A stretch of DNA of 56,309 bases. It comes from a virus. The notes under the pieces are model-generated. The model did not search any database, was not told where the DNA came from, and was given only the letters and a program-made list of their open reading frames with translations. Positions 1-54,968 of the stretch are shown here, piece by piece. Made by a program: the position numbers and the translations under genes. The stretch covers positions 1-56,309 of the IMG/VR virus record IMGVR_UViG_3300020465_000022; one strand, 5' to 3'. The number at the start of each line of letters is the position of its first letter. The stretch's first letter is position 1.

Positions 1-3000
1 TGTTGTTGCCTGTAAGGTCATCTATGATTTCATCATCATCACCATATTGAACTCCCATTGATGGAACTGCGGTTTGGTCAACTTGCGTTTTAGCAGTAGG
101 CATACTTGCTTGACTTCCTACATTAGGTTTAACTTCTGATTGTCCTGCACCGCTACCAAAGAAGTCTTTTACTTGACTGGCAACATCTTTAATTTTGTCA
201 AAGAATGTTGTTTCTGCTGGAACACCTTTTTCTAATCTTGCCAATGCGGCAGTTAGTGTGTCTATGCTTGAAGCAAATTTTATAACACTATCTGCTGTAC
301 CGTCTAAGCCGTCAAACATATCTATAGCACTCTTAGATTCTGATAGTCCTTTAAATGCTTCTCCTAATATGAATATGCCCATCATATCCACGCCTTGTAA
401 TCCTTTAGCAAAGTCTATAACTTTTTCCATTGGAGATTTAGCACCAAACAGTTTTCCAATTCCGTCCATTAAACCTGATAGTAAAGAACCACCGGACATA
501 ACTGCCAAGCCGGCACCTATTGCCGCCAATCCTGCACCAACTAAGATTAAGTTTTTGCCATCTACCATACTCATTAACACAATGTTTGGTACAAACATTT
601 CAAATGCTTTTGCGGCTATCATTGCCGCCACTGCGAACGGAATAAGTGCGGCACCCAATACACCAATTGCTAATGCACCTGCCATCACAAATCCTACAAT
701 AGGTGGCATACCAATAATACCAGCCGCAACTGCCAGGGCGGCAATCGCCGTTGCTAACACACCTATTGTTTTAAATCCTACATCTTTCATAAGGTTAAGA
801 CCAAATGCCAATGGAACCATTGCAGTACTAAGTGCTAATACTCCAACTGCACCCTTAACCATACTAGTTGATGATTTTTCTAATAGTTTGGATAGTCCTA
901 TCATACCACCCATTGCAAGTAAGCCTTTACCCATTGAGGCAAAGTCCACTTCATTAAATTGTTTTAGTCCTACAGCCAACAATGCAACTGCGGCACCCAT
1001 CATTACCATACTTGCGGCACCTTTAACTACTTTGTTGTCTCCAAACTTCTTAACTGCATTTGCTATATTACTTAAGAAGCCTCCACTCTTACCGCCTTTG
1101 GTCATAGCACCTGTTATGCCGTCTGCTTTATCACTTGCACCACCTAACACCTTAGCCGCAACAGAACCTCCACTGCCAACTCCGGAACTAGCCGCGCCGG
1201 CAACTGTACTGCCTCCGCCACCCATTATGCCACTAATTAATTTAGAACCACCTTTCTTAATCAGACCTCCTAAGAATCCTAAAGCCTGTTTACTGGCACT
1301 ATAGGCAAACACAGCCAGGAATAGATATTTTAGTCCACTCATTAATGCATCTATTAATGGTTGTTTTATTCTGTCTATTACATCAGTAAACATAGCACCA
1401 AAATCTATGCCGCCATCATCAGTTCTAAATCCATCTATATATTTTTTAAGAGACTTGAATGCTCCAACTACTGCTTCTATACCAGTTTTTAACATTGGTA
1501 AAAACTTCTTAGCCATTTCTTTACCCATGTCAGCCATGCCTTGTGCACCGCCACTCATGTCATCTGAAGCAAATCCAAATATGCCCATTATTTCTTTCAA
1601 GCCGTCTTCTAATGCTTTTGTGATTTCCGGGTCTGCAAATAAACTGTAAAATGCACTACTAAATCCTGATGTTGCCTGTGCAACTATCTTGTTAAAGTTA
1701 TTTGTGCCTTTTTGTACAGTATCCATATTAAATCCTGTACCAAGCATTTCATTAACTTCCTTCATTTTGGATTCACTTTGTTCGAATTGTGTGATTGCTT
1801 GTGCCATTTGTTTTGCACTTTCGTCACCAACCCTAGCCAACATAAAGATCCTGTCTTTTTCTTCTTTGCTTACATTTCCTAAATCCTTAACAAGTCCTTG
1901 CACCATTTCATCTGCTTGACTTTGTGTAAGTGTACCTGCTTGTACGGCATCTCTAAATTCGTTCATTGGGCCTGCTAATCTTGGCAATGCTTGAACCATA
2001 CCAATAGCGGCATCACTCAATCCAATAGCACCCATTGTTGCTTGTTCTGTGAATGCTTCTGCTAATGCTTGTCCACCTTGTCCTCCAAGTGCGGCAAGTC
2101 CACTAGCAAATACTTCAACACCAGCAACTAAATCACTTCTTACTGTGTCTCCAAATCTTAGGAAACTTGCAGTAAGCATTCCGTTGTTTGCAATTAATCC
2201 ATCAACAAATGCCTGTATCTCTTCTGTACTTTCACCAAGTGCAGTAGCATAAGCAGTTTGGAATCTAGTTGTTGTTTGGATTTGTTTGTTTAATCTTCCT
2301 TGGTCAACACTACCAACGTTTAATAATCTTTGACGTCTTTGTAGTGATTCACCAAATGTGTTCATGCTGTCTTCAAAACTCATACCAAGTTCTTCTGAAG
2401 TATCAGCGGCAAATTTCATTGTGTTTTCAAATCGTTTTAGACCTGCTGTTGCAACAACTCTTGAATTGGCGGCAATAAGTTGTGCGGCTCCTTCAAAGCC
2501 TAAACCTAAAGCACCCAGTCTAGCAATACCTTGTGTAGCACTTGTATCCAAGCCACCTAGTGTACTGTTAAAACCTACACCAACTTTGGTCAGTTTGTTA
2601 AGTTCGTCTCCAACACCTAATGCCTTAGTGGCTACAAAAGATAAACCACCAGCAACTATACCTGTAAGAGCAGTACCTACACCTAATGCAACATCACCAA
2701 GTTTGCCCACAAAACCTAAAAGTTCTTCACCATCTGATTCTAGTTGTCTGCCAAACTTAACAATACCAGCACCAGCCGAGTCTAGGAAACCTCTACCTTT
2801 TGCATTGTCGGCTCGTGTTTTGCCCTGTTCTTCTTTTATGGTTTTGCTATTGTCTTTAAAACCTTTTTCGATTGCTTTCTTTTGTTCTTCAGTGGCTTCT
2901 AACTGTTCTTCATTTGATTTTTCTTCTTTTTTGTTAGCCTTCTGAGTTGCTTTAAGCATGTCCTCATTTGATTTTTTGAGTTCTGCTAATGCTTTACCAC

Positions 3001-3118
3001 TTACGCCATTAGCCTTTGCAATTTCCGTAAGAATATCCACCATTTGCTTAGAAGTGGATTCACTTGCCCAGTCTGGGAAACTGTAACTTTGTCCTTCAAT
3101 GTTAAATGAAACTGCCAT
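1..3118 (-). CDS. Tail tape-measure-like protein (5' part; runs off the window)
   Basis: An uninterrupted minus-strand frame of 1039 codons starts with ATG at 3118 and is still open at base 1, so the C-terminus is missing. The first ~120 residues are charged and Lys/Glu-rich, consistent with a coiled coil. Long Gly/Ala/Val-rich hydrophobic stretches follow, alternating with amphipathic helices, the usual composition of tape measures, which set tail length and fill the tube. Its place next to gp26 and its late promoter support a tail role; in T4 the equivalent is gp29, but I cannot show homology by eye. The start is well fixed: GATAAATA (3131-3124 on this strand) lies exactly 5 nt upstream of the ATG and there is no Shine-Dalgarno, so the mRNA is probably leaderless. 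Proline-rich frames on the opposite strand are shadows of this gene. Another large tail protein remains possible. Confidence 0.72.
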   Translation of the reverse strand, partial: MAVSFNIEGQSYSFPDWASESTSKQMVDILTEIAKANGVSGKALAELKKSNEDMLKATQKANKKEEKSNEEQLEATEEQKKAIEKGFKDNSKTIKEEQGKTRADNAKGRGFLDSAGAGIVKFGRQLESDGEELLGFVGKLGDVALGVGTALTGIVAGGLSFVATKALGVGDELNKLTKVGVGFNSTLGGLDTSATQGIARLGALGLGFEGAAQLIAANSRVVATAGLKRFENTMKFAADTSEELGMSFEDSMNTFGESLQRRQRLLNVGSVDQGRLNKQIQTTTRFQTAYATALGESTEEIQAFVDGLIANNGMLTASFLRFGDTVRSDLVAGVEVFASGLAALGGQGGQALAEAFTEQATMGAIGLSDAAIGMVQALPRLAGPMNEFRDAVQAGTLTQSQADEMVQGLVKDLGNVSKEEKDRIFMLARVGDESAKQMAQAITQFEQSESKMKEVNEMLGTGFNMDTVQKGTNNFNKIVAQATSGFSSAFYSLFADPEITKALEDGLKEIMGIFGFASDDMSGGAQGMADMGKEMAKKFLPMLKTGIEAVVGAFKSLKKYIDGFRTDDGGIDFGAMFTDVIDRIKQPLIDALMSGLKYLFLAVFAYSASKQALGFLGGLIKKGGSKLISGIMGGGGSTVAGAASSGVGSGGSVAAKVLGGASDKADGITGAMTKGGKSGGFLSNIANAVKKFGDNKVVKGAASMVMMGAAVALLAVGLKQFNEVDFASMGKGLLAMGGMIGLSKLLEKSSTSMVKGAVGVLALSTAMVPLAFGLNLMKDVGFKTIGVLATAIAALAVAAGIIGMPPIVGFVMAGALAIGVLGAALIPFAVAAMIAAKAFEMFVPNIVLMSMVDGKNLILVGAGLAAIGAGLAVMSGGSLLSGLMDGIGKLFGAKSPMEKVIDFAKGLQGVDMMGIFILGEAFKGLSESKSAIDMFDGLDGTADSVIKFASSIDTLTAALARLEKGVPAETTFFDKIKDVASQVKDFFGSGAGQSEVKPNVGSQASMPTAKTQVDQTAVPSMGVQYGDDDEIIDDLTGNN

Positions 3119-3123
3119 ACCAA

Positions 3124-3156
3124 TATTTATCATAAAGTATTAAAACACGTTTTAAT
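3124..3156 (-). promoter_or_regulatory. Bipartite late promoter of the tape-measure gene
   Basis: Read on the minus strand, an 18-bp palindrome with 8-bp arms ATTAAAAC/GTTTTAAT (3156-3139) is followed by 7 nt and then GATAAATA (3131-3124). The box matches T4-type late promoters (TATAAATA) recognised by gp55. The ATG follows after 5 nt. The same arrangement occurs at four other places in this window. Confidence 0.75.
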
Positions 3157-3174: not shown

Positions 3175-3207
3175 ATTAAAACTAGTTTTAAAGATGATAA
3201 ATAAATA
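3175..3207 (+). promoter_or_regulatory. Bipartite late promoter of gp26
   Basis: The palindrome-like ATTAAAACTAGTTTTAAA (3175-3192) is followed by 7 nt and AATAAATA (3200-3207). A GATAAATA at 3196-3203 overlaps this box, so the exact -10 is ambiguous. The leader to the gp26 ATG is ~36 nt and contains AGGAG, unlike the leaderless class. It lies back to back with the tape-measure promoter. Confidence 0.72.
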
Positions 3208-12205: not shown

Positions 12206-13072
12206 TTATTCGCTACTTGGTGTTTCAACTTCGTTTTCTGCATTTGCACGAAGTTCACGTAATTCTTCCTCATGTTGAATCTGTCTACCGTAACTTGGCA
12301 AGTGACCTTGCTCAATTAAAATATCATCTCTAATTGTTTGATTACGTTTTTCCAAATTCAATACCCTTGTAAAACTGTTATTGACAGTTGCAGTATAATA
12401 AGCAAATGGATTATCACTTTTTGCTTCATTAAATTGTAATCCAATTTGTGCTAATTGTACTAATGCTTGTCCACGCATTTCGTCAACATAAGTGTAACCT
12501 CTCCAGTTACCTCTTTGACTATAACGTTCAACAAGTTTCATAAACATTTTACCCAACTCATTTGTAATCCTTCCGTGGTCAACTGAAAAATGTCCATTGT
12601 GTAGTCCACCTACCCAATGACTTCTAACAACTTCTCTAGGATTGATTCCATTGCTGTCTAAAATATAGTGCTTAAATGGTGGAAAGTTTACTTTTGCTTT
12701 TGTGTCTGCAACAGTTTTTGTTGTTTTCTTCCTACCTGGCTCATCTGGAATATGGTCATAAGTCATAACTCTAAATACTAACTCATCTATAGCCATTGTT
12801 TTAGGATCAACAGTAAACTCTTTCTGTTTAGGCTTTTTAGTCCAATCGCCTTTTGCAACTGCTTGTTGATATGCTAAGGTGCTTAATTTAGCCGCCTTAT
12901 TTATTTGTGCTTGTTTGATTGCGGTTTTGTTTATCTTTTTAACTGATTCCACAATAATATCCGGCTCAGAGTATCTATCATCCTGTAAGTAACAGTATGT
13001 CATTTTGCTCTGATGGATTTGTTTTAGAATATCTTTATTATTAAGATAATTAACCTTTTTAGGTTGTGTCAT
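12206..13072 (-). CDS. 55: Late-promoter sigma factor gp55 with N-terminal extension
   Basis: The C-terminal part (residues ~165-270) matches T4 gp55: an ELGKMFMKLVERYSQR helix, then RGYTYVDEMRGQALVQL and NPFAYYTATVNNSFTRVL, the sigma-region-2-like segment that binds core polymerase and reads the late -10 box. The total of 288 residues exceeds T4 gp55 (185). The extra N-terminal ~160 residues begin with NNKDILKQIHQSKMTYCY, which recalls small free-standing proteins of marine T4-like phages, so this may be a fusion (memory only). It is first in its operon behind TTGACT-N16-TATAAT, with GGAG before the ATG. It presumably drives the GATAAATA promoters in this window. Confidence 0.85.
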   Translation of the reverse strand: MTQPKKVNYLNNKDILKQIHQSKMTYCYLQDDRYSEPDIIVESVKKINKTAIKQAQINKAAKLSTLAYQQAVAKGDWTKKPKQKEFTVDPKTMAIDELVFRVMTYDHIPDEPGRKKTTKTVADTKAKVNFPPFKHYILDSNGINPREVVRSHWVGGLHNGHFSVDHGRITNELGKMFMKLVERYSQRGNWRGYTYVDEMRGQALVQLAQIGLQFNEAKSDNPFAYYTATVNNSFTRVLNLEKRNQTIRDDILIEQGHLPSYGRQIQHEEELRELRANAENEVETPSSE

Positions 13073-13173: not shown

Positions 13174-13206
13174 ATTAAAGTACGTTTTTATTTATCCAGA
13201 TAAATA
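13174..13206 (+). promoter_or_regulatory. Bipartite late promoter of the tail/baseplate operon
   Basis: The imperfect palindrome ATTAAAGTACGTTTTTAT (13174-13191) is followed by 7 nt and GATAAATA (13199-13206). The leader is 27 nt with GGAG at 13218-13221 before the ATG at 13234. Sequence and spacing match the other bipartite late promoters. Confidence 0.75.
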
Positions 13207-20984: not shown

Positions 20985-21017
20985 ATTAAAACTAGTTTTA
21001 ATGGTATCAGATAAATA
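20985..21017 (+). promoter_or_regulatory. Bipartite late promoter of gp25 (perfect palindrome)
   Basis: The perfect 18-bp palindrome ATTAAAACTAGTTTTAAT (20985-21002) is followed by 7 nt and GATAAATA (21010-21017). The gp25 ATG begins 6 nt after the box and no Shine-Dalgarno is present. It restarts late transcription after the minus-strand island. Confidence 0.8.
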
Positions 21018-21022
21018 TTGGT

Positions 21023-21394
21023 ATGGCAAACATTTACAAAGGCTTTAGTACAGTAAACAAGATTAGGGCACCTTATACCTTAACGGATGCCGAACTTGTA
21101 AAAACTGATTTACTGAATGAACTCAATACTAGACAAGGTGAACGTGTTATGCGTCCAAAGTTTGGTACAAGAATTTTTGACATACTTATGAATCCACTAG
21201 ATGAATATGTTGTCAATGAAGTTGAGGAAGATGTAATCAGAATTGTCAACAAAGACCCTAGAGTTGAACTACAAACAGTAAAGACAGATGTTTTGGATCA
21301 CACAATAAGGTGTGCAGTACAACTTAGAATTTTGCCAAGATTAGGTAATGACGAGTTATATGTAGAATATGCTCGACAAGACGTAGAGTTATAA
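21023..21394 (+). CDS. 25: Baseplate wedge protein gp25
   Basis: The 123-residue protein is a typical GPW/gp25 family member: NELNTRQGERVMRPKFGTRIFDILMNPLDE, then an EEDVIRIVNKDPRVEL helix and strand. gp25 is a baseplate wedge subunit that seeds sheath assembly; T4 gp25 is 132 residues. The start is fixed by the family N-terminus and lies 5 nt after GATAAATA, with no ribosome site, so the message is probably leaderless. It ends 1 nt before gp6. Confidence 0.93.
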   Translation: MANIYKGFSTVNKIRAPYTLTDAELVKTDLLNELNTRQGERVMRPKFGTRIFDILMNPLDEYVVNEVEEDVIRIVNKDPRVELQTVKTDVLDHTIRCAVQLRILPRLGNDELYVEYARQDVEL

Positions 21395-37800: not shown

Positions 37801-40800
37801 TTATTAACTTCTAATCAAGGAGCAGGTGTAGTTAATTATGGTGGAGGAGGAGTTGCTGGAATCAGTGTTCCTACTGTACCAGCATCCGCAGGAACACCTG
37901 TAACAACAGGAACTAAATTTATCTCATTGGCGCCATTAGCCAAAGCAAATGGCAAGTATCAACCTGTACAACCTCCTGTACAAATACCTGTATGTCCTCC
38001 AAAACCAAGAGTAAAAATTTGTGGTGAGCCATTAGGAGTAGGTAAAGGTGATTCATTTAAGATTGATGATTGTACAATTGATATGAACTTAGGTGCAAAT
38101 GCAACATTAAATAATGTTAAGAATGCAATTGAAAGTCAATGCGATAAAGTTATTGTAAACATTAGTTCAAGTCCAACAACTAATGAACAATGTTTAAGTA
38201 TTATTAAAAAGAGTTCAGACCCAATGGTTATTAGAAATGGGTGTGCAGGTGGTGTATTTAAAGAAGTACTAGACTATGCGGCACAAAAAACTAACCAAGT
38301 AAACTTTAATTCGCATCAACAACAAGATGCACAAAATAATCCAGCGGTTAATACAACATTCCAAAACCAATTGGGAGCGGCATCAAATCAGAATGATGCA
38401 TTCACAATGATTACTCCTGCTAGTGTTTCTAGTTTTGTAACAAATACAGTTACAGCAGACGAGAAAAAACGTCAAAACATTATAGCACAAAGAAGTGGAG
38501 TTGCAGGTACAGGTTATAGAGTAATGGATATACTAAGGGTTGTTGGTGGTACTCCTGTAGTTAGAGTACCTGCTTTGAGTATAGAATCATTAACAGTAAA
38601 CAATGCAGGCTCAGGATATTTAGACCAAAACAATCAAGCAAGAGGATTAGAAATCAGAATAGGTGATCCAAGTGATCCAGGTGGTGGCGCACAAGCAGAC
38701 ATGAATAACATTGTGTTTGATACTAATGGTGGACTTGTAGAGATACCATTACTATCAGGTGGTAGAATGTACAGTCCAGAAAATCCGCCTACAATCACAG
38801 TAAAAGGTTTAGGTAAAAATGCAAGAGTTTCTGCAAAATTTGCCACTGCAAAACCTGTAGAAAGAGTTGCTAAATTTGTTATAACACAAGTAGGTACAAA
38901 CGGAGAACCTTTAAACTTTGCATGTATTGACAGAGGTGTTTACAAAGAATTCCCAAGTGACCTAGATAGTGGTTTACCATTAGAATATGATATACAAAGA
39001 CAAACTCCGTCAGACAAACAAAGTGATGTATTAGGTACAGCAGGATATGAGGCAGGTTCAGGTACAGGTGCTAGAATTTATTTAACATCAAGATTTATAC
39101 CAGACTGTTCAGAAAAAGGTAATGCTTTAACAGACTTAGGATTAAATGAAGGTGTTGTTCCTAAACCATCAGATGCAGAACAATTAATGGAAACAATTAA
39201 TGACTATCCAATATTTGGCCCAGACGGTTTCCCATTGTTTGGTGCAGAACTTATAGATGACGGCAATGGATTCCAAATATTAAAAATTGGTGGACCAAAC
39301 ATTGATGGTATAAGACTTGGTGATGAACTTAATCCAGGTTTATTAGACTTACTAGGAATATTGCCAGGTTCATACATTAAAGATCCATTACCAGAAGCAG
39401 TTAAAATAGACACTGGTGACGGTGGTGGTGACACAATTGGTTTCTTGGGTACAAACGAGATTAATACAACAGCAGGTGATGTTATAGGTGGCAATGCTGG
39501 TATGTTCACATACACATTGTTAGATATCAATGGTGGCAATACACCTAGACCATTTGAACTAGATAAAAGAATTAAAGTTGATGGCTTAATGCTTAAGAGT
39601 TTAAGACATGCAACGCCTCCAACAGGTTTTGAAAATATGGCTAATGTATGGATTGACCAATACGATGCAAATGGTTGGGCATACTTAGAAGCAAATACAG
39701 TTATTAGAAAACAAGAAAAATTAGTAGATGTAAAACGTATTACAGACGTTATAACATATGATGAGGAAACAGCACATAAAGAATTTGATATAGATTTATA
39801 TGATCCATTCAAAGGTGTTATACCAGGATTTATAAGCAAGGATATAAACTATAGAAGTACAGTAGATCCTTGTGTATATGATCCTGCAAGAACAGAATGG
39901 GGTAGAGAGCAAGTAGGTACAACTTGGTGGGACACATATAATGCAATTTATCAATGGTACGAACAAGGATCAGGTGCATATGGCATCAGTAGATATGTTG
40001 ACGGCATGGTTGAAAAAGTAGGCTACAACAATACAGAAAGAGCAATTGGTTGGGGTGAAAGATTCCCTAGTTCACAAATTGAAGTTTATGAATGGGTTGA
40101 AAGTATTAACTTGCCTAATGCATATGAAGGACCAGGTGTTGTAAAAGATCCAAATGCATTTGTTGTAGAAAAACATGTGGACAATAGAAGCGGTAAGACT
40201 GTACAATATTATTACTATTGGGTAAGAGGTGTTTTAGATGTAAGTGATACAGCAAAACAAAAATATGGTAGAGACAGAAGTGTTGCAGACTTAGAAAGAC
40301 TATTAAATGATCCTTATGCAGAAAGAGTTGCTTTTGCAGGTATTATTTCACCTGACGGAATGATTGTTAATACACTATCTGATTTAATTAAAACAGATGA
40401 AAGTATTTTAAGTGTAAACTTCAAACGTAAAGATCCAATTGCAAGTCAGAAACATAGTAGTTGGAGACTAATTGGTGAAGGCGACCCACAAGAAAGTATA
40501 CCTGAGAATTTAAGTATAAAACTAATAGACAGTTTAGCAGGTTATAATGCAATTAATCAAGTTGTACCAACCAAAGGATTGAGTACAGCAGAACGTTACG
40601 GTTCTAAGTTTAGACCTAGACAAACAATGTTTAAAAATCTCAAAGATGCTAGAAAGCAAATGTTTGATGCATTAAATGAAATCTTTAGAGAAGTTAAAAT
40701 GGACAGCACGTTCTTAGATTGGAGAACAAAACTTCCTGCTACATTAACTTATTTAGATACTGTAAATTGGTTTGAAAAACTAAGAGTTAGTGGTATTGAT

Positions 40801-43800
40801 AATTCGCAACTATACTACAACGAAGATTATAAACCATTAAGAAAAGTAACAGATACAAAACAATTTGAATTATTAACAAATGTATTAGATAAGAGCATTA
40901 TACAAGTTCAAAAGAATGATACAAGCAAATATGAACTTTATGAATATACTAAAGCCACAGATACATTTAAGTTAATTGCAAAAGAAGATGAAACTGTACA
41001 ATGGAAAACAACAGTATATACTGATATACAAACTGAAGCAATTGGTACAGAAATTAGACAAGTATTATTTGCACTTTATAAAAATGTATTCATAGGCTCA
41101 GGTTCCGAATATTGGAATCAGTTCTTCTTTAAGATGCTTAAACATGCATACGCAGAACAAGGTGAACTTGATTGGGCATTTAAATCAACATACTTAAAAG
41201 TTGAAAAAGAAGAAACAGACTTAATTCCATTTAAAGGATTTAAAGTTGATAACTTTGATAAAGCCGTAGACTACTTTAATGAAGTAAAACCATATAGTAG
41301 TAAAATTAGAAATTACAGTGATATTAAGAAAACACCTGTAGAATTTTTAACAGGTTCAACAACAGACTTTGATAGACCTCCTTACTTTGATGAAAGTATT
41401 TCAAATGTTAGAATATTAGATGATAGTGTGAATACAGATGTTAATATTTTATCAAGTAATACATTGTATGCAGGATTTAACAGCAATAGTAATTTAACAA
41501 GACAAAGTAATACAACTATTGTATTTGATAGAGTTAAAGGTGACTTGTTTGAAAATACAACTGGTGGTAAAACTGAAACTGTTATTGCAGATGGTTCTAG
41601 TGCAGGATTTAGTTTTAACATAGATGTTAAAGACCAAGATAAATTTAAAGTATTTGTTAGCGGTGAACTTATACCTGCTAAATCTAAAAATAGAGATGCT
41701 ATAAGAGGCATAACAGGTTCTCATGATACATTGACATTAGGTAATGATGCAAATGCGTTCTTAGTATTGTCAAGTAACATTGGTGCAACTGCAAGTAGAA
41801 CACCAGGTACATACGCAAATGTAACAGGTACAAGTAATGGTGTAGGTGCTTCAACATTTAATAATATTGTTAGTGGTAACGGTAATACTAGATTAACATA
41901 CTCTGTAACAGTAGCCGCTGACGTAAATAGACAAGCAGGAACTTATAGTAATGTTGCTGGCACAAGTGATAATGGTAGTGCAACAGTAGGTACATATGAC
42001 GTTGTAGTTGATGCAATTACAGGTAATGTTTCAAGTGTTACAGCAAATGTTCCAGGAACAGGACATGTAGTTGGTGATACTCACACTATTATAGATGCAC
42101 TACTAGGAGCCGGTGGAGCACCAGCAGTAACATTTGATGTTGCAACTGTAAACAGAACACCTGGCACATATACTAATGTTGCTACAACAGGTGGTACTGG
42201 CACAGGTACAACAGTTGATGTCGTAGTAGACAGCATAGGTACCGTAACAGGTGTTACATCTAATGTAAATGGTAACGGCTATGTAGTTGGTGAAACTTTA
42301 ACAGTTGCAGATAGTCTATTAGGTAACACAGGCGCAAATAACATAACATTTGATATAGCAACAGTTGATTTATCCGTTGGTAATATAAATGTTACTGTTG
42401 AAGCCAATGGTGCAATACAAACAGTTAGTGTTACAAGTCCTGGCACAGGACATGCTATAGGCGATGTTATCACAATTAGTGATAGTGTACTAGGTAACGG
42501 TGGAGCCGCAGATGCTACATTTACAGTTTCAAGAGTAAACAGAAAGCCTGGTACATACAACGGAGTAACTGGAACATCAAGCAGTAGTAATTCAACAGTA
42601 GGAACATTTAATGTTACAGTTGATGGAATGGGTAACGTAACAGCAATACCAACAGTAGCATCATTTGGTTCTGGTAATAAGATTAATGATGTTATTACTA
42701 TTCCAGATAGTGCATTGGGTAGTGCTGGTGCAAATGCTTTACAGGTAAATGTTGCTTCAATTGGTAACTTGGTTGTAGATGTTGCAGACTTATCTGTTTA
42801 TAGAGATGACAGTGATACAGGTGTACAGTATTCAAGTGAATATGCAAATTCATCGATAACAGGTGAGAAAATTGTTGTTGAAAATGTGTACACAGAACAT
42901 GCAAACGGATTACCAGCAAGTAACGAACTAAACAATAAAGAATTCTTTGTTAAGGTTGACAATGATAAAATAGAGTTGTATAATGATAAACTACAGACTA
43001 CTAGACCTACACTAACAACACCATATGTAAGTGGAGGCTTCCTCACAGAAGAAGTAAACAACTACAATGTTAATTTCATTAGTAACTTTGTAACATTTGA
43101 ATCCAACGCAAGTTTAAATCCAAGAGTAGGTACTCCTATAAGTGGTACACCAATTACATTTGAATATTATGATGGATATGATCCAACAACAGAAAGTTTA
43201 AATGTTAGTATTGCTAAAAATATTGTAGACATAGAATCGAATGCAAATATTAATATTAGTAATGTAAGTCAAAAATGGACTGCTCCAGAAAAGATTTGGA
43301 AATATGATCCAACAGTAAGAAGTGAAATAGTAAAAGCATTTGATTTAGTATATGGTGAAGGGTCAACAAGTAATGCAAACATTATTCAAAATGTTGACAT
43401 TGTAACCAACATGGTTAATTCAGGTAATTTAACACCTGCATTGAATTTGGTTAAGAGAAAAGTTGGTGCTAATTTCCAAGGCAGTGAATTAGACGCAAGT
43501 ATATTTACAGACATTGTACCAGGTACACACTCAACAACTTTCTATACAGATACAAGAGGTTGGGACGTATTTGGCTTTGATACTGATGCATACGACAAGC
43601 AAGTAGATGTAGAAAACTTCATTGGTATATTCAACGAAGCAACACAAGGTAATGTTAATTACAGAGTTGATGATGAAACATATTACGGGTTCGATGCTGT
43701 TACATTTAGTAAAGCAACTTATGGTCCAGATAGACCTGAAGAACTTATTGTGGTACAACCATTTGAAACATTAGTAATGGATGTTACAACAAAGCCAACA

Positions 43801-44676
43801 GTATTCTTTACAGATGCAACTAAGACAGTTACAACAAGTAATACAACAGCATTTAGTGAAACAGTTGGTACAAATAGTGCAGAAGTAAGATTTAAAATTT
43901 TCCAAGACTTGTTTGGAAGAAGTGATTACTATAGACAAACAGTAGCACCTGCAACAACATTAAGTGCAAACTTAGAAATATTCCATAATGAAATAAGTGT
44001 TACAGATGCAAGTACATTGCCAGAAGCAAGTGAGATACAACCTGCGGCAATATGGATACAAGGCGAAAGAATAGAATACGAAACAAGAGATACTGCAACT
44101 AACTTACTAAAAGGTATTACAAGAGGTACAAGAGGTACAACTCCTAATACACTAATTGTTAGTGGTGCAGAGATAAGAAACGGACAAGAATCAGAAAACA
44201 TCAAACTAGTTGGAGGGGACGGCAAATTAGTACGTGATCCTGAACTGTACAACTGGATAAGACCTGTACAAATATTTGATAACCAAGTTCCGTTTGATGA
44301 TGACTTCGATGGAACTGGTGGTACATCAGGATTCCAAGATGGAGTTGAAACATTAGACGGTGATACAGGTGACTTATTGTATGATGTTGAAACAGGAAAC
44401 ACAACTGTAAGGTCAGACGGAAGTAGTGTTTCACAAGACGGTTTTGACGGACTATGGGACGAAAACAGAATTGCTAATGGTGGTAGTTATGCTGGACAAG
44501 TGATTGAATCCATTAATGGAAACACTCACATTATCTATCATGACATAGACACTGACAATGGTTTTGATAGTGGTCAAAAAGGTCAAAAAGATGCAATTAG
44601 CATCACAGATAAAGGTAGTGTGTTAGAAGCAAACAGCAGTATAATAGACTTCCTACATAATTTTGATAATAATTAA
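25867..44676 (+). CDS. Giant 6269-residue baseplate/tail structural protein
   Basis: A single uninterrupted frame fills a third of the window. Parts familiar from very large virion proteins of marine T4-like phages include the N-terminus (NFFESTVEQLFSKANIEQVSGFVG), a YHYH-domain motif SPIVGWAFDGFPIYGPYGY (residues 1437-1455), NQFDFYRGMIKSKGTKTAI with VYDEWGLKAGEFG (~2184-2235), and EYWNQFFFKMLKHAY...DYFNEVKPYSSKIRNY (~5080-5150). Between them lie beta-rich repeats, a Pro/Gly-rich hinge ending in twelve prolines (3704-3715), a Cys-containing section (~3720-4150), and a tandem repeat array (5311-5634). It sits where T4 has gp7/gp8, so a peripheral wedge/fibre-bearing role is inferred. Start: ATG at 25867 after AAAGGT. 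Confidence 0.8.
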   Translation: MADDKQYSKLPANQQTTAVKNFFESTVEQLFSKANIEQVSGFVGRKEYEQFEPTDRYVSQPTSGRNFYSFEPVVSSVNQISGRSENNVFFDDFANILESYGADTSKQNVLFDSEFYSFLPPINIDKFINFQEYFWSPTGPTPKTIEGTVTNPINIEKDILGKKSYTAPDGTVFKNGMIVTFTGNYAIPLSYQDDQRWIIEGVGESIILFNRDQNFATTFATELNIPFDNTLITSTDELVSTPGTSMLSGGLIGLADPDGTTITDSNKFTDYDGYVLHYNDRYAPGGRTPAVGYVSMSQVDPDSGQPLWAGYITPIGTSLQYVVGGSGAFDTQPFDSDNTQTVPDYIMMQRGAKDNNVWSRINFWYHRQNFLDVGDQLPAKSARATRPILEFDRDLELYNFGKLGVDSVEISSYDTTYSEVDGRPTNGVVDSVTLRSGNKILFPSEEQNVSQYIYQVESSTEATVFADVTSSTNITLTSTNDDIKVGAVVSEPGNSLNNITVASISGTALVVNSAISITAGTVLSFDDRVILKRKPASTNPAGAVDGDANFVPYTPTTGDVVSIKFGANKQGVEYYWSGTAWLEGQKKNKVNTPILFNAYDVNKKALDNEAVYPNSMFIGNKIFSYKEDNTIGATRDTVLDMALSYRNFNNFSEIVFVNNLDDDLVSYKAFGSTQDSFVKGYVYYKRILPNGDSEYCTTWKTHSTKASQIVRDQYIVSQKDVDDERLLWKISAKPTDNANSIRVYINDKRNKTFSFDPNQTAITFSTFTFKLNDVIDIEIKTTEGKITADDRFGHFEVPASWVSNYENADIKEISQPQYLEHFRNFVKNQELFSGDPLGSNNFDNLEKDETYANRIIQTDDSLQMASWLVSNEKFNIIDAINFNANEYVKYKARLKSEIKRYIDNNDTSTMSNSEILEFVLQNVIAFNPGKLVFDYSYMLAFGDKYTEEKITINNVATKKYTLTNYLDCNNVQNTIYVYDQVNNVDTMLLVDKDYTINSLNGVVTLEFTSTYTLTLGNIIKVRLFDLNRESTQTPPTPSAMGITPLYVPEIISDTSFISPINVIVGHDGSRTVADNDLHDNILLEYERRVYNNVLQEYRDKDSHPDLNVHTIRPGRFRNTGLSRENFYNLIRNDFNQYVSRNDVDFVKNEFYDTDNFFTWNYNSGTTSPGYWRGIYESCYDTERPHTHPWEMLGFTKKPTYWDSTYGTDYTSENKKLWNDLEEGKIRGGSRENLTNNKFKTNNPYRRIGLKNEIPVDENGNLVAPANIISTAATTKTIDFIETTTGTATANANSFIKTIDGLSVKEIGSNIFVSSTNGVNHEVGTFPSTNNTAFIDLNKVSNYNIVSLAGNNNSTTYGSATSTGNTSVGVAVNGALIFNGNTGVQHSESSSFNYDAMYRNDVDRDSAGGYPDRNNLYGYVQPSPQTVGLTEWATDSHSPIVGWAFDGFPIYGPYGYTDRLNVSSDIKRLQSGYSLKTTTRTTVGGTPTGEFIEDYEYSSTGADLDEFNGRFGITPEYPSGTYYYVATIDADSKPAYPYTVGGKFAGTLQTEGPFAAYGEENAGGNSHGKIGYFYPLYLTVDSALRESTSGGYHTHTFKEHPGVKFYMPNQFSNHGTGSYPEGTYTLYSSANALDSGTATYTLASTETITFGATTSLTNNTWKFSDGAPVENSWKISEGYPFAIASALYLTKPGKFASVFAEPQKIVRGSANTNQLLENANFRRFKVKNSVVHGSKDDDNKLRASTGYTQFIDSYLRFQGLDTHTEFAIPFASVSSKLGSKLAGYIDKDTMTVFLDNYTTTGNSSSLILPQEDIQVDVHIGPYATTNDYTGVLVELTEDAKYKVFGFNSVKKHFDIEPSFKEGPRTQIEVGGEPADFTNFSNTTNYPAGAIVKSGFNFFRAKEQANAGTSVTNTETWERLASLPQIGGARATLFLEGTGQVERVEYGTEYEKLEDVFDLLISIGRQQKNMGYVFDQYDDSIGDVNDWTYSGKQFLFWTLGNWAAGNTISLSPGAGKLTFQPNIGRVSPILESDQGQFSILDEEGKVILPTECTIIREDTQLIVSPPEGKQLYGIILYTNEIEHSMLINNRTTFGDTIFDDIFGSRQKRVKLKGKRTKNWDGTLTAEGYLITSNGLKPNYDTLADDMRRYTEIGHVPVEKNLYELTRRQYGYAEKKYLREFELINDNQFDFYRGMIKSKGTKTAIETLLNSNKVLVPGSVAVYDEWGLKAGEFGDTENEQSLDLKITTDEITSESQLIQIAYPENIVSKVKEVEVLDRTTVFYQRPILEIEPPPAEIPGSFTYGGGTTAKATVNISQDGTISDVTVDEPGYGYTINPAVTVIAAQLLTANVTTNFLQPSAITTSVEIGGSASGQYVDHGGIFTGANALTNGMFITDHFAPSANANTFVDFTGLSNIQAVANLINNTAEVNANISANTTLITTVDGSGNLVENYQLNIKGNDFSLSNSNTQIGNIANVNLQGKRYQPRQRYSFESANSTTHSDVVITVNGNSTTGNAVGAGGNIDWEFDPGSRTTVISDRGLVTGNVSQTFSFQPLSTANISTLAGSIATDNLNIINGSYPHIEVYVNGSLLSDKLESDATSGYTITNVDSNTNNIIFHDVSQLPGGQLDAQANILIVEKSTVDFTDTYQGDLPGSTLNIKVFANDALAAKLEQVRTFEITPDDESDNTILIDVDDASRLVVRPSDMAEKSLWPLTSSVSYVGIVDSKYDPLPNSGYVSKYDVDYQAMDLSDARELFNSDVRRPKEIPGVNDIIHFARGEHNEFDVYELEKANVSRMFVEYDDVNNQSILFSDVSLDNLYKDKNQLERITAPISGATADGTNVTFTATQLFKKGDKVTISNVTPSVFNLTNANIIAANISAFTVASNISGTYSGGGRATTDYDNTLYYDSVIALKGNTTLGPNVTWAGNLTNAEGDKLFDPTALKMNEKLMLYVDETQISDQAVEVANITFNPPTYRAISTIAPKNSGSITTMANYPNGSVRDSANSNFSVQANVLTGGDVQISLEENANASPNRSNIANGRYVRFVDSTSSTLNNNAFVISNVIFGDGNVTNTLTGFANVGPIVQLETSNITSNTNIVYIDEVKDANGRVLWENEQANAQLGNYLQDFDIASNRFFSPTETSSNIFIDGVNLHANGKVNYVVLSENIAVSSNIAANTVINTTSVQAQFTNANTKITTFTINDPGVSSNIAPADLTASVDDGLLVTTDANVSNLIAGDTVYVNRAGGYTDTYILRKIEPSDTPAGTQTGKILLDGFFSDPLSNTLTVNGAVTDSPNVILNGSLVNVQGGMLVSGTGVTAGTKVVDVTSLSNITLSANANISNGATLTFTEDTFGNADIVDSTITVTTRENHGHPTDGTDKIIGQTITIADFGAEFYNKNYTVLDVPSDNTIELEGFGLGHPHAPGDGNTYINKQAFDMFGTGATQTRGDLDNFTDDNDDGIDNRVPVLVETSQGTYNIDGADVVTRAYNYLNADELVDEINRQLIQKQNSVMDTGSFNAGFAIPKGSLNAMKHSIFGPMGRKAGGPKAINGAGRIPTIPPGFQGAPQINNTAINMANPGSFLNHFGAIGPAGAGGGLGFNPFPGGTNVSFTPVGPINLPFNPVNNTGTPPQVPTPGAGAGGTQAPPSPPQTPIPPIVPPVPPATPTPTYNSPNLSSTVKVDSIGSNYGVTVLNLDTIKTITQFDEPCPPPPPPPPPPPPKPDAVTVCEKVSNTKGTGVTEWKTFTFTSNNQFDYTVKILFDMYSAKDKMTVYQSSSANQGSGRVIATTQGSQGLALMDQKELNELGAAFGIGSGSYYGGLKNYVGPDGSGFLTFAGKLTFSYNADNGRYIHVKLEKTPKRSIAYRYFMCYPQDATSGAAPKLPTPPVAAFVPPKIPLGNIPLGIPNFGNLMAGSLGLGGGTPNFNFSAQIGGIGALSYSSLPININLGTSNKSLQAKNNPFGSTVASGTPTYSATTQSGATNLLTSNQGAGVVNYGGGGVAGISVPTVPASAGTPVTTGTKFISLAPLAKANGKYQPVQPPVQIPVCPPKPRVKICGEPLGVGKGDSFKIDDCTIDMNLGANATLNNVKNAIESQCDKVIVNISSSPTTNEQCLSIIKKSSDPMVIRNGCAGGVFKEVLDYAAQKTNQVNFNSHQQQDAQNNPAVNTTFQNQLGAASNQNDAFTMITPASVSSFVTNTVTADEKKRQNIIAQRSGVAGTGYRVMDILRVVGGTPVVRVPALSIESLTVNNAGSGYLDQNNQARGLEIRIGDPSDPGGGAQADMNNIVFDTNGGLVEIPLLSGGRMYSPENPPTITVKGLGKNARVSAKFATAKPVERVAKFVITQVGTNGEPLNFACIDRGVYKEFPSDLDSGLPLEYDIQRQTPSDKQSDVLGTAGYEAGSGTGARIYLTSRFIPDCSEKGNALTDLGLNEGVVPKPSDAEQLMETINDYPIFGPDGFPLFGAELIDDGNGFQILKIGGPNIDGIRLGDELNPGLLDLLGILPGSYIKDPLPEAVKIDTGDGGGDTIGFLGTNEINTTAGDVIGGNAGMFTYTLLDINGGNTPRPFELDKRIKVDGLMLKSLRHATPPTGFENMANVWIDQYDANGWAYLEANTVIRKQEKLVDVKRITDVITYDEETAHKEFDIDLYDPFKGVIPGFISKDINYRSTVDPCVYDPARTEWGREQVGTTWWDTYNAIYQWYEQGSGAYGISRYVDGMVEKVGYNNTERAIGWGERFPSSQIEVYEWVESINLPNAYEGPGVVKDPNAFVVEKHVDNRSGKTVQYYYYWVRGVLDVSDTAKQKYGRDRSVADLERLLNDPYAERVAFAGIISPDGMIVNTLSDLIKTDESILSVNFKRKDPIASQKHSSWRLIGEGDPQESIPENLSIKLIDSLAGYNAINQVVPTKGLSTAERYGSKFRPRQTMFKNLKDARKQMFDALNEIFREVKMDSTFLDWRTKLPATLTYLDTVNWFEKLRVSGIDNSQLYYNEDYKPLRKVTDTKQFELLTNVLDKSIIQVQKNDTSKYELYEYTKATDTFKLIAKEDETVQWKTTVYTDIQTEAIGTEIRQVLFALYKNVFIGSGSEYWNQFFFKMLKHAYAEQGELDWAFKSTYLKVEKEETDLIPFKGFKVDNFDKAVDYFNEVKPYSSKIRNYSDIKKTPVEFLTGSTTDFDRPPYFDESISNVRILDDSVNTDVNILSSNTLYAGFNSNSNLTRQSNTTIVFDRVKGDLFENTTGGKTETVIADGSSAGFSFNIDVKDQDKFKVFVSGELIPAKSKNRDAIRGITGSHDTLTLGNDANAFLVLSSNIGATASRTPGTYANVTGTSNGVGASTFNNIVSGNGNTRLTYSVTVAADVNRQAGTYSNVAGTSDNGSATVGTYDVVVDAITGNVSSVTANVPGTGHVVGDTHTIIDALLGAGGAPAVTFDVATVNRTPGTYTNVATTGGTGTGTTVDVVVDSIGTVTGVTSNVNGNGYVVGETLTVADSLLGNTGANNITFDIATVDLSVGNINVTVEANGAIQTVSVTSPGTGHAIGDVITISDSVLGNGGAADATFTVSRVNRKPGTYNGVTGTSSSSNSTVGTFNVTVDGMGNVTAIPTVASFGSGNKINDVITIPDSALGSAGANALQVNVASIGNLVVDVADLSVYRDDSDTGVQYSSEYANSSITGEKIVVENVYTEHANGLPASNELNNKEFFVKVDNDKIELYNDKLQTTRPTLTTPYVSGGFLTEEVNNYNVNFISNFVTFESNASLNPRVGTPISGTPITFEYYDGYDPTTESLNVSIAKNIVDIESNANINISNVSQKWTAPEKIWKYDPTVRSEIVKAFDLVYGEGSTSNANIIQNVDIVTNMVNSGNLTPALNLVKRKVGANFQGSELDASIFTDIVPGTHSTTFYTDTRGWDVFGFDTDAYDKQVDVENFIGIFNEATQGNVNYRVDDETYYGFDAVTFSKATYGPDRPEELIVVQPFETLVMDVTTKPTVFFTDATKTVTTSNTTAFSETVGTNSAEVRFKIFQDLFGRSDYYRQTVAPATTLSANLEIFHNEISVTDASTLPEASEIQPAAIWIQGERIEYETRDTATNLLKGITRGTRGTTPNTLIVSGAEIRNGQESENIKLVGGDGKLVRDPELYNWIRPVQIFDNQVPFDDDFDGTGGTSGFQDGVETLDGDTGDLLYDVETGNTTVRSDGSSVSQDGFDGLWDENRIANGGSYAGQVIESINGNTHIIYHDIDTDNGFDSGQKGQKDAISITDKGSVLEANSSIIDFLHNFDNN
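41797..42770 (+). repeat. Tandem beta-repeat array inside the giant protein (4-5 copies, ~55-75 residues)
   Basis: Residues ~5311-5634 repeat the theme RxPGTYxNVxGTS...VxVDxxGxVTxVxxNxxGxGxxxGDxxTIxDxxLGxxGAxxxTFxVAxVN. Copies begin near 5311, 5358, 5433, 5504 and 5562; the first and fourth are incomplete. Copies are diverged at DNA level. Likely a fibrous or filamentous beta stack. Confidence 0.75.
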
Positions 44677-44704
44677 AGTATATTTTAATGAAAAGTGATA
44701 AATA
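44672..44704 (+). promoter_or_regulatory. Bipartite late promoter overlapping the giant gene's stop
   Basis: The palindrome ATTAAAGTATATTTTAAT (44672-44689) contains the TAA stop of the giant gene. It is followed by 7 nt and GATAAATA (44697-44704). The next ATG (44710) begins 6 nt after the box, with no Shine-Dalgarno. Confidence 0.78.
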
Positions 44705-44709
44705 ACAGC

Positions 44710-45324
44710 ATGAGTGTAAGTAAGGATAAAGACAAAATCGAGGAACCTAAAGTGGACGATAATGCCGGTATCAAAATGTCAGGGCACATCTTAATTAGAG
44801 ATGCTGACACCAAAGAAGAAATTGTAAACAAAAGAAATGCAATTCACTATGGTAACATGGCAAACATGATAGCAAAAGCATTAACGAACTCTGCAGATTC
44901 ATATATTCACTTTATGGCTTTTGGCAACGGTGCAACAAGTGTTGATGCCGCAGGTAAAGTAATTTACAAAGCACCTAGAGTAAGTGAAGCATTTGAAAAT
45001 AGTGCAACACTTTATAGTAGGACCTTCCAAAAAGTTATTAGTAATAACACAACAACAGACAAAATTGAAATCATTCCAGGAACTAGTTACACAGATTTAA
45101 AGATAACTTGTACATTAGGTTATAACGAACCTTCAGCACAAGATACATTTGATACTAGTACCACCAATGATGGTCTTTATGTTTTTGATGAGTTAGCATT
45201 ATTAAGTTATGCAACTGATCCAACAAACAGCACAATGCTTACGCATGTGATTTTTCACCCAGTACAAAAAAGTGCAAACAGGACGATAGAAATAATATAT
45301 ACTGTAAGAGTACAGTTAAATTAA
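44710..45324 (+). CDS. Virion structural protein, conserved in marine T4-like phages
   Basis: The 204-residue protein has a charged N-terminal tail (~1-25) and a folded body with GHILIRDADTKEEIVNKRNAIHYGNMA and IHFMAFGNGATSVDAAGKV. It ends with a beta segment, IEIIYTVRVQLN. I recognise the type from marine T4-like phages as a tail/fibre-region protein of unknown detail. The start is set at 44710 because the late -10 box ends 5 nt before it; a GTG at 44695 lies inside the promoter. It is followed after 13 nt, with AGAGG, by the fibre-like gene. Confidence 0.7.
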   Translation: MSVSKDKDKIEEPKVDDNAGIKMSGHILIRDADTKEEIVNKRNAIHYGNMANMIAKALTNSADSYIHFMAFGNGATSVDAAGKVIYKAPRVSEAFENSATLYSRTFQKVISNNTTTDKIEIIPGTSYTDLKITCTLGYNEPSAQDTFDTSTTNDGLYVFDELALLSYATDPTNSTMLTHVIFHPVQKSANRTIEIIYTVRVQLN

Positions 45325-47194: not shown

Positions 47195-47202
47195 GATAAA
47201 TA
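47195..47202 (+). promoter_or_regulatory. Late promoter box GATAAATA without the palindrome
   Basis: GATAAATA directly follows the stop of the fibre-like gene. No palindrome occurs at the usual distance. The leader is 25 nt with AGGAG before the ATG at 47228, matching the class with normal ribosome sites. Confidence 0.6.
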
Positions 47203-47227: not shown

Positions 47228-48277
47228 ATGGCATCAGGATCAACATTAACAGTAAGCGGTGGAACTAACATGGTTCAAGTTGTCGCTAATACCGACACAG
47301 TTCAACCTGCTGATTATGATAACATGATTGCAAATGTATATAGGCAACTAGGTGCACCTAATGATGTTACATTGGGCTCATATACACTTAGTACTGTTTA
47401 TGGTTACAACAATGCAACAGGTAGTTTAGATGCCGCAACAGGCGAAACTATTAATGCTAGTAGCACAGACAATGGTTATAAAAACTTACAGGACGAGGTA
47501 CAGTCCTTAGCAACATTCTTAGGTTTAACATTAACAGGTAATTCAGGTTCAGACAGAACAAGCAGTAATACAATTACAGCCGCTGACTGGAACAACTTGA
47601 TGACTGATGTTAAAGCATGTTTTGATGCAAGAGTGGCTGTTCCATCAAGTAGTTTAACAACAGATGCCGCAGACACTAGCACAAGAACAAGTGCATGGGG
47701 TAATGCCGCAACAAACGAAGTCACACATCAATTCACAATGACGTTTCCAAGTGAAGCGGCAAGTAGAGGATTTTTTAACTCAGGTGGTGAAGTATTATTT
47801 ACAGGTTCACGTTCAGGTGGTACATCAGGTAGTGCCGCAGGAACAATTGGTTCTCAGAATGCAAACTGGACTTCATTGTTAAGTGCTATGGGTACATTAA
47901 CATTTAACTTAGATGATTTAGTAAGTTCAGGATCTACAGGCACAAGTGCTAACAAAGGTTTTTATGAACTAACAACTAGTTTCCAAACACTCTATACCAA
48001 AACAGGTTCAGGTGCATATTCAAGTAACTATTACAGAATTCAAGGTAAAGTTGACAGTACAACAAACCCAACAGTATTAACATTTAAAACAATATTTAGA
48101 GATGACCACGCATTAGGTTCAGGTGTTGGACCTGACGGTGTTGCTGGCAACTCAGATGACACACAAGGTTATGTTGATAGTGTTGACGGTACATTAACAA
48201 GTACAGTTCAAACTAAAAGAGCAAATAACGGTGTAACACATGCCGCTCCAACAACTGCTACAACAAGCGAACTATAA
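47228..48277 (+). CDS. Virion structural protein (phage tail/fibre region)
   Basis: The 349-residue protein is rich in Ser/Thr/Gly and beta-prone, with VQPADYDNMIANVYRQLGAPNDV near the N-terminus, TAADWNNLMTDVKACFDAR (~118-136) and THQFTMTFPSEAASRGFFNSGGEVLFTGSR (~167-196). It ends with an acidic calcium-site-like stretch (GPDGVAGNSDDTQGYVDS). Similar proteins are found with fibre genes in marine T4-like phages. It is the last gene before the terminator at 48301-48328. Confidence 0.7.
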   Translation: MASGSTLTVSGGTNMVQVVANTDTVQPADYDNMIANVYRQLGAPNDVTLGSYTLSTVYGYNNATGSLDAATGETINASSTDNGYKNLQDEVQSLATFLGLTLTGNSGSDRTSSNTITAADWNNLMTDVKACFDARVAVPSSSLTTDAADTSTRTSAWGNAATNEVTHQFTMTFPSEAASRGFFNSGGEVLFTGSRSGGTSGSAAGTIGSQNANWTSLLSAMGTLTFNLDDLVSSGSTGTSANKGFYELTTSFQTLYTKTGSGAYSSNYYRIQGKVDSTTNPTVLTFKTIFRDDHALGSGVGPDGVAGNSDDTQGYVDSVDGTLTSTVQTKRANNGVTHAAPTTATTSEL

Positions 48278-48334: not shown

Positions 48335-48342
48335 AATAAATA
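48335..48342 (+). promoter_or_regulatory. Late promoter box AATAAATA of the glycan-related operon
   Basis: AATAAATA lies 6 nt after the terminator's T-run. The ATG at 48348 starts 6 nt after the box and there is no Shine-Dalgarno, so the message is probably leaderless. The palindrome position is occupied by the terminator instead. Confidence 0.6.
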
Positions 48343-48347
48343 TGAGT

Positions 48348-48707
48348 ATGTCGTCTAAACTAACAAAAGCATTAGAATTTGCTAATTATCGTAGAACGTT
48401 AAATGTTCAGCATAATAATTTAAAAGCAAAAGTCCAAACACTATTAAGTTACAGCATTAATGGTGGAACATTTCAAATAGACCAAGTATTGATATCGTTT
48501 GTAAAAACATTGTTAGACCAAGAACACACAAAAGCAGTATTGCTTGACATATACAATAACCCAATTCAAATTGAACTCGAAGAGTTCTTAGAGGAAATTA
48601 CATCACGTTACTTTGAAGCAACAAATGAATATCATGCAGAATACGAAAAATTAAAGAAGAGCAGAAAAGTACATAAGTTGATTGATTTAGATATCGATGA
48701 TACATGA
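48348..48707 (+). CDS. Small conserved helical protein, unknown
   Basis: The 119-residue protein is predicted all-helical: LTKALEFANYRRTLNVQHNNLKAKVQTLLSYSING, then FQIDQVLISFVKTLLDQEHTKAVLLDIYNNPI, then EEFLEEITSRYFEATNEYHAEYEKLKK. No enzyme motif is seen. It resembles a hypothetical protein type common after fibre genes in marine T4-like phages. I prefer the ATG at 48348 to the one at 48342, because the latter lies within the late -10 box and 48348 fits the 5-nt spacing. It overlaps the phosphomannomutase start by 11 nt. Confidence 0.65.
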   Translation: MSSKLTKALEFANYRRTLNVQHNNLKAKVQTLLSYSINGGTFQIDQVLISFVKTLLDQEHTKAVLLDIYNNPIQIELEEFLEEITSRYFEATNEYHAEYEKLKKSRKVHKLIDLDIDDT

Positions 48708-53353: not shown

Positions 53354-53949
53354 CACCAGGCGAAAAACTTGCATTACTAAAAAAAGAACATGGCTCTTTG
53401 AAAGAGGCAGAAAAACAAAGAACAGATACAACGTTTCTTGTGTATAATGATGAGGGTATAATATTTTATAAAAGTCATGAAAGACCCGAAGATATGCGTA
53501 AGCATAAAAATAAAAAGTTAGTAGAAATGGAAACTAATGCAGTATCGTTTATGGACGAAGAAGGAAGAAGTGTAGCAGAATTTATAGTCGAAGAAAATGA
53601 TGATGGTATTCCATACGTTACATTTAAGCCTGTGGATAAACCTACATATGATGTAGAACAAGAATTTTTAACTGAAGTAAAAGAGTATAAAGAAGATGAT
53701 AAGTGGGATATAATGATTAATGTACAACAAAGCAAGTTTACTGTTACATTAAATTCCAAAAAGAAAGTAAAAGAAAATATTGTTTTGTATATTACGTCTC
53801 CAGGCGACCCACATATACTGTACGAAAAATTAAATATCAATATTAATGATTTACAAAACTTAAAAATAATGAATTTTAAAAAGGACTATAACCTAAACGA
53901 TTTTAGCATTTACACAAGGAAATTATATGATAAATATGTGCGTAGTTAA
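53341..53949 (+). CDS. Conserved phage protein, unknown
   Basis: The 202-residue protein starts at ATG 53341 with GGAG ~6 nt upstream, inside the end of the glycosyltransferase gene (13-nt overlap). It has a helical N-terminus (ELTPGEKLALLKKEHGSLKEAEKQ), a beta-rich middle (FLVYNDEGIIFYKS, AEFIVEENDDGIPYVTFKPV) and a C-terminal beta/helix region (YITSPGDPHILYEKLNI). No family is recognised. The late box for the next gene lies in its last codons. Confidence 0.6.
   Translation: MAELTPGEKLALLKKEHGSLKEAEKQRTDTTFLVYNDEGIIFYKSHERPEDMRKHKNKKLVEMETNAVSFMDEEGRSVAEFIVEENDDGIPYVTFKPVDKPTYDVEQEFLTEVKEYKEDDKWDIMINVQQSKFTVTLNSKKKVKENIVLYITSPGDPHILYEKLNININDLQNLKIMNFKKDYNLNDFSIYTRKLYDKYVRS
53929..53936 (+). 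promoter_or_regulatory. Late promoter box GATAAATA inside the 3' end of a gene
   Basis: GATAAATA lies 33 nt before the ATG at 53970 and has no upstream palindrome. The leader contains AGGA. It lies in coding sequence (DKY), so chance occurrence is possible; the 20-nt gap after the stop, the largest in this operon, favours real use. Confidence 0.45.
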
Positions 53950-53969: not shown

Positions 53970-54968
53970 ATGGCAAAGATAGATGTCACCGAATTAGACA
54001 TATTTTACATATCGTATGACGAACCCAACTGTGAAGAGCATTGGGCAGATTTATTAAACAAAGTACCTTGGGCAAAGAGGGTACACGGCGTCAAAGGCTT
54101 TGATAAAGCACACAAGACTGCCGCAGAACAATCCGAAACAGAAAGATTTATAACCGTAGACGGTGACAACATCGTTATGGATGATTTCTTTGAACAAGTT
54201 TTAGAGGTTCCCGACACAGACCATGACGGGAACAACATATCAGAAAGTATTTTTAGTTGGAATGCTAAGAATATACTGAACGGTCTAGTATATGGTAATG
54301 GCGGACTTAAATGTTGGCCCACCGAATACACAAAGACCATACGAACTCACGAAGCCGCCGATGATGGAGAAGGAATGGAGTTTTGTTGGAAACTTAACTA
54401 CATACAACTGAATGACACATTCAGTGAAGTGCATCAAACAGCCAGTCCGTTCCAAGCCTTCAGGGCAGGCTTTCGTGAGGGAGTTAAAATGAGTTTAGAC
54501 CAAGGTAAGCGAATCAGTCCTGATGAGTTTATACAAAAAGTGTGGTGGCAAAACTATAACAGATTACAGACATGGTGTAACATAGGCAGTGATGTAGAGA
54601 ATGGCTTATGGGCAATCTATGGAGCAAGATTAGGATGTAAGATGACAGTTTTAAGCGATTGGAACACTAATCAAATATCAGACTTTGAATGGTTTAAAGA
54701 ATTCTTTGATAGCGACATACTACCTCGTTTTCCAGGAGACGAACTTTGTAAGTACACAAAAGTTACATGGAACAAAGAGATGTTAGAAATAGCAATTAAA
54801 GATTTAGGAGCAGAATTAAACGACAACATTAATGAAATGATGTTGTTTGATCCGGATCCTCAGATGTGTAAATTCTTTAAAAAGACTTTTGTTAATCCAA
54901 GACGTTGGGGAGCAATGGTTAGAGAAACACAGATACAAGAATTATTAGAAAAAGGATTATTACAATGA
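53970..54968 (+). CDS. Glycosyltransferase-like protein 3 (DxD)
   Basis: The 332-residue protein has an N-terminal LDIFYISYDEPNCEEHWADLL, then RVHGVKGF and a DxD site ITVDGDN (Asp64, Asp66), followed by a FSWNAKNILNGLVYGNGGLKCWP segment. It resembles GT-A-like proteins recurrent in marine T4-like phages, unrelated by eye to the two transferases upstream. Base composition is less AT-rich than in the genes before it, especially 53970-54500. Substrate is unknown. It ends overlapping the barrel gene by 4 nt (ATGA). Confidence 0.68.
   Translation: MAKIDVTELDIFYISYDEPNCEEHWADLLNKVPWAKRVHGVKGFDKAHKTAAEQSETERFITVDGDNIVMDDFFEQVLEVPDTDHDGNNISESIFSWNAKNILNGLVYGNGGLKCWPTEYTKTIRTHEAADDGEGMEFCWKLNYIQLNDTFSEVHQTASPFQAFRAGFREGVKMSLDQGKRISPDEFIQKVWWQNYNRLQTWCNIGSDVENGLWAIYGARLGCKMTVLSDWNTNQISDFEWFKEFFDSDILPRFPGDELCKYTKVTWNKEMLEIAIKDLGAELNDNINEMMLFDPDPQMCKFFKKTFVNPRRWGAMVRETQIQELLEKGLLQ

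Follow-up and report, generated by a model that had tools for sequence, protein, structure and literature searches.

Predicted leaderless late mRNAs from T4-type promoters in a marine phage and its relatives

Introduction

Late transcription in T4 is the textbook case among phages, and leaders with Shine-Dalgarno (SD) sites are assumed for its genes. In the T4 numbering the first base of the late box (TATAAATA, served by gp55, gp33 and gp45) is -13 (PMC2988020), and the late promoters lack any conserved sequence at -35 (PMC2988020, PMC7892883). The leaderless mRNAs described from bacteria and phages, of which lambda cI is an example, have a 5'-terminal AUG, lack an SD site and strongly prefer AUG (PMC9031893). 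A third relevant system is the set of "-10 region next to the ORF" genes of Deinococcus-Thermus, where a -10 element directly before the ATG is reported to yield a leaderless mRNA (PMC12340547).

The DNA considered here, hereafter the window, is one IMG/VR virus record, IMGVR_UViG_3300020465_000022, of 56,309 nt. It comes from a phage of a marine group that is distantly related to the PA5oct-, RaK2- and Atu_ph07-like jumbo phages, and it carries gp25 (PF04965), a baseplate-hub-like gene, SbcC/SbcD-like genes and a gp55-type late sigma factor. Its late promoters resemble those of T4 in their 8-bp box, the predicted position of that box relative to +1, the gp55-type sigma and the structural genes that they serve, but in T4 the nearest ATG-initiated open reading frame (ORF) lies 12 nt past the box and an SD site is found in 23/29 genes at 15-69 nt. 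Several window genes would instead share with lambda cI a 5'-terminal AUG and SD-less translation. Unlike the lambda cI type, however, they belong to an entire class of late genes in a lytic myovirus, terminase, baseplate wedge and adaptor among them, that is driven by the promoters of a phage sigma factor; and whereas the Deinococcus-Thermus cases are host genes, these are phage genes behind gp55-type late promoters. The cultured pelagiphages HTVC008M and Mosig have the same class, a NATAAATA box 5 nt from an ATG, at 9 and 6 genes respectively. We found no report of leaderless T4-type late mRNA in the open-access literature, HTVC008M and Mosig included.

Materials and Methods

For each NATAAATA box, d was defined as the distance to the next ATG-initiated ORF of at least 60 aa, and SD sites were scored by four-base motifs. 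Two long related records, G001 (339,794 bp) and G002 (250,519 bp), were scanned whole. The chance expectation for the window rests on the 0.36% of its positions at which an ATG opens an ORF of at least 60 aa. The exact T4 box was rejected as the working box, as it has a single match in the window, fewer than chance; in its place NATAAATA was taken as the working box, G being its most common form.

Results and Discussion

The original prediction named four window promoters at which a late box and an ATG are separated by exactly 5 nt with no SD site, and all four are borne out at the sequence level. On the minus strand, the box at 3124..3131 reads GATAAATA-TTGGT-ATG and precedes a long ORF cut by the window edge (1..3118), which is tape-measure-like in length, composition and place and has no family match. 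The plus-strand box at 21010..21017 (GATAAATA-TTGGT-ATG) precedes the baseplate wedge gp25 gene (PF04965, phrog_261/43; 21023..21394), and the box at 44697..44704 (GATAAATA-ACAGC-ATG, with the ATG at 44710-44712) precedes a phrog_11259 gene of unknown function (44710..45324). The fourth box, at 48335..48342 on the plus strand (AATAAATA-TGAGT-ATG), lies directly 3' of a terminator-like hairpin and is followed by a 119-aa gene of unknown function (48348..48707), whose G002 orthologue (69% identity) also has d=5. None of the four ATGs has an SD site upstream.

A second set of promoters has longer leaders. GGAG-type sites had been claimed for three of them, and AGGAG or GGAG is indeed present at each: the box at 3200..3207 (+, AATAAATA) stands 36 nt, with AGGAG, before the baseplate-hub-like gene at 3244-4125; that at 13199..13206 (+) stands 27 nt, with GGAG, before the gene at 13234-14067; and that at 47195..47202 (+) stands 25 nt, with AGGAG, before the gene at 47228-48277. 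A fourth SD-led promoter, at 53929..53936 (+), has an AGGA site and a distance of 33 nt to the gene at 53970-54968. For the hub gene we also considered a box at 3196, but the constant 7-nt distance to the upstream palindrome described below favours 3200.

The 5-nt spacing is real and far above chance. In the window, 4/13 boxes have an ATG-initiated ORF of at least 60 aa at exactly +5, where 0.05 would be expected (binomial P = 1.2e-7), and the binomial P for d=5 ranges from 1e-7 in the window to 6e-39 in G002. Across the window, G001 and G002, no ATG falls at d=0 to 4, 46 fall at d=5, 6, 2 and 3 (11 in all) at d=6, 7 and 8, and from d=9 to d=15 the counts are 0, 1, 1, 0, 0, 2 and 0. Over the same three records, 60 permutations of the box gave on average 0.22 cases at d=5 and at most 2. 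A reversed-pattern control gave 0-3 cases per record. An SD site was found in 0/46 of the d=5 genes of the window, G001 and G002, and at d=15-69 in 38/44 genes of G001, 33/41 of G002 and 5/6 of the window. With 46 genes at d=5, SD-bearing genes at 15-69 nt and an almost empty gap at 9-14 nt, the distances therefore form two classes. The original prediction had held that such a split argues against coincidence and had suggested comparing box-to-ATG distances across related phages; the split holds genome-wide and across genomes, with the d=5 class recurring throughout G001 and G002. GTG and TTG starts account for one case each at d=5 in the three records, a near-exclusive use of ATG that a requirement of leaderless translation for AUG, as known from E. 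coli (PMC9031893), would predict.

These observations leave little room for chance or an annotation artefact in which the ATGs are not true starts: its only support is the additional in-frame start codons at three of the window sites, and it is refuted for the class as a whole by P values of 1e-7 and far lower, by gp25 N-termini that align from residue 1 in all relatives, and by the annotation of HTVC008M, in which the gene starts are the d=5 ATGs.

Because the first base of the T4 box is -13, +1 should lie six bases past the box, and the original prediction had on this ground placed +1 at the A of the ATG. The base composition of the leadered class points independently to the same start site. 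Among SD-led GATAAATA promoters (n=52), a purine occupies box+6 in 90% (A 73%, G 17%) and T occupies box+5 in 67%; in the SD class of Melnitz and PA5oct, base 6 after the box is A or G in 23/23 and 19/23 cases, respectively. The start deduced from the leadered class is thus box+6, which in the d=5 class would be the A of the start codon. Leadered-class boxes other than the G type do not have the A at +6, and some of these may therefore not be promoters.

We consider the best explanation of these data, with a probability of roughly 0.88, to be that T4-type, gp55-dependent promoters give rise to a regular and conserved class of late mRNAs without leaders, with +1 at the A of the ATG. Binding of the late holoenzyme to NATAAATA at -13 to -6 would lead to initiation at box+6, just as it would at this phage's leadered promoters; where d=5, that base is the A of the start codon, and the mRNA would begin 5'-AUG. 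Translation would proceed without an SD site, the ribosome presumably binding the 5'-terminal AUG directly. What supports this reading in the sequence is the box, the 5-nt spacing, the absence of SD sites, the conservation, the bimodal distances, the initiator composition and the gp55-type gene. A caveat to it is that three of the four window genes have a further in-frame start codon overlapping the box (ATG 3133, GTG 44695, ATG 48342), which could be used by a longer transcript; at the 21010 site there is no further start codon between the in-frame stop and the ATG.

Very unlikely, in our estimate, is that these genes are leadered after all, transcribed from an upstream promoter or by read-through, and that NATAAATA is an A/U-rich translation signal or a regulator site. 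The 44697 box lies only 21 nt past the stop of a same-strand 6269-aa gene, which makes read-through RNA likely there, and A-rich stretches can aid SD-less initiation. An A-rich enhancer, however, has no need for exactly 5 nt; SD-led genes of these phages are preceded, at 15-69 nt, by this very box with identical initiator bases; and it is the box, not the ATG, to which the palindrome holds a constant distance. About as unlikely is that the polymerase starts slightly ahead of the AUG, by 1-3 nt, at many promoters, leaving a very short leader. Start-site choice usually wobbles by about a base, and d=6 to 8 cases do occur, in G001 as well as in relatives of the 44710 gene, so that some leaders would be 1-3 nt long; against this as the general state stand the 46 cases at d=5 versus 11 at d=6-8, and the pyrimidine-purine start step of the d=5 GATAAATA class, in which base 5 is T in 84% and the A of the start codon follows as base 6.

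Conservation among relatives also bears on the predicted leaderless class, with the caveat that related contigs do not count as independent and that several loci come from one contig or are near copies. Among 46 gp25-like loci from IMG/VR, the arrangement palindrome-7 nt-GATAAATA-5 nt-ATG is present in 43, which are 43/43 of the marine relatives and comprise 17 distinct promoter 40-mers. The box is 100% conserved in these loci, the spacer between palindrome and box 49%, as if free to vary, and third codon positions downstream 68%. The gp25 gene of PA5oct has a GTG start and an SD-like leader, and that of Melnitz an ATG start and an AGGAG leader. The relatives of the 44710 gene, the close ones of which keep the box-5 nt-ATG arrangement, have the box at 5 nt and less often at 6 or 8 nt, and in several distant ones it lies 19-24 nt off, in some with an AGAG-type site. 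Orthologues of the leadered genes (hub, 47228, 53970) vary in distance and mostly keep their SD sites. Between G001 and G002 the class is retained in 28/34 orthologue pairs (9+19; Fisher P = 5e-4).

Informative switches occur among orthologues between a predicted leaderless message with ATG and an SD leader with GTG or TTG. The long minus-strand gene starting at 3118 has d=5 and ATG, and would be leaderless, in the window, L002, L003 and G001, and its orthologues in L007-L010 have a TTG start with an SD-like leader. Taking L004-L006 and L007-L010 together, these orthologues start with TTG or GTG, as opposed to the window's ATG without a leader.

Five window promoters, drawn from both classes (3131 minus, 3200, 13199, 21010 and 44697), carry a palindrome, ATTAAAACnnGTTTTAAT, 7 nt ahead of the box, a feature that the original prediction did not mention. 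Its copies are ATTAAAACGTGTTTTAAT at 3139..3156 (-), ATTAAAACTAGTTTTAAT at 20985..21002 (+) and ATTAAAGTATATTTTAAT, with 3 mismatches to ATTAAAACnnGTTTTAAT, at 44672..44689 (+), together with those at 3175..3192 (+), upstream of the box of the hub-like gene, and 13174..13191 (+); the window promoters at 47195, 48335 and 53929 have none. Palindrome-box pairs occur at five further places in G001 and three in G002, with a gap of 6-7 nt as a rule, and none was found in PA5oct, HTVC008M or T4. That this distance is constant in both classes adds to the evidence for the box as a promoter element. Upstream sequence is not conserved at T4 late promoters, a trait that describes T4's own promoters rather than defining the gp55-dependent type. 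The palindrome is a probable site for a dimeric activator, at about -38 to -21.

The late sigma factor of the window (288 aa; 12206..13072, -) matches phrog_12791 (3.4e-93), and the T4-type phrog_234 aligns to its residues 166-274. It has some 160 additional N-terminal residues relative to the T4-like core. We rejected this extension as the reader of the palindrome, as the PA5oct homologue has a similarly long frame (289 aa) and PA5oct has no palindrome-box pairs. A gp55-type late sigma is encoded in the window and in 10/10 other records tested.

The number of d=5 genes is 17 in G001, 25 in G002, 7 in G003 and 3 in Melnitz, beside those of HTVC008M and Mosig, and PA5oct has 2 (P 0.06). T4 (0/33) and Syn9 (0/22) have none, and in a pattern search KVP40, Phosso, Vibrio 2.275 and the cyanophages S-SSM5, P-TIM68 and P-SSM2 were at or below the control. 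The HTVC008M set, which lacks the upstream palindrome, includes the tape measure and the gp25 wedge and further comprises the DNA end protector, tail tube cap, wedge-initiator gene, CsgF, 2OG oxygenase, a transcriptional regulator and one gene of unknown function. In both G001 and G002 the terminase, head-tail adaptor and gp25 genes fall into the predicted leaderless class, and in G002 those for sheath, tube and portal have SD leaders. A group of marine T4 relatives and some SAR11 phages probably make structural proteins, baseplate and packaging motor among them, from messages that lack a leader and the usual ribosome-binding site.

Such messages might serve to keep assembly proteins of low copy number at levels under those of sheath and tube, which are SD-led. 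As a rule, copy number fits sheath, tube, terminase, wedge and adaptor, but the portal is SD-led and most genes are unannotated, and we do not adopt it. We offer only tentatively, as a joint proposal that is somewhat doubtful as a whole, that several T4-related lineages of the phages of pelagic bacteria sort their late genes by box position, with abundant proteins (sheath, tube) SD-led and low-copy ones (terminase, wedge, adaptor, tape measure) leaderless, and that a tail and baseplate subset in the window's clade adds the palindrome of a dimeric activator, giving a two-part late promoter unlike that of T4.

If the leaderless reading is true, the place of a promoter box is by itself enough to decide how virion genes are translated, which would account for absent ribosome-binding sites and misplaced starts in the annotation of marine phages. 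HTVC008M and Mosig would then allow a direct test of how well SAR11 ribosomes use leaderless mRNA in infection.

Several of these phages encode a ribosomal protein, bS21: G001 (L238, 145827-145979), G003, PA5oct, HTVC008M, Mosig and Melnitz (L237, L233-L236). It was not found in G002 and so does not follow the predicted leaderless class, for which reason it was rejected as a co-factor.

Two further features of the window may be recorded. A single 6269-aa ORF (25867-44676, +) occupies a third of it and ends just before the 44697 box. A 142-aa ORF at 8177-8605 (-) matches phrog_447, which is labelled NAD synthetase, as well as several homing endonuclease families, and it adjoins the SbcC/SbcD-like genes.
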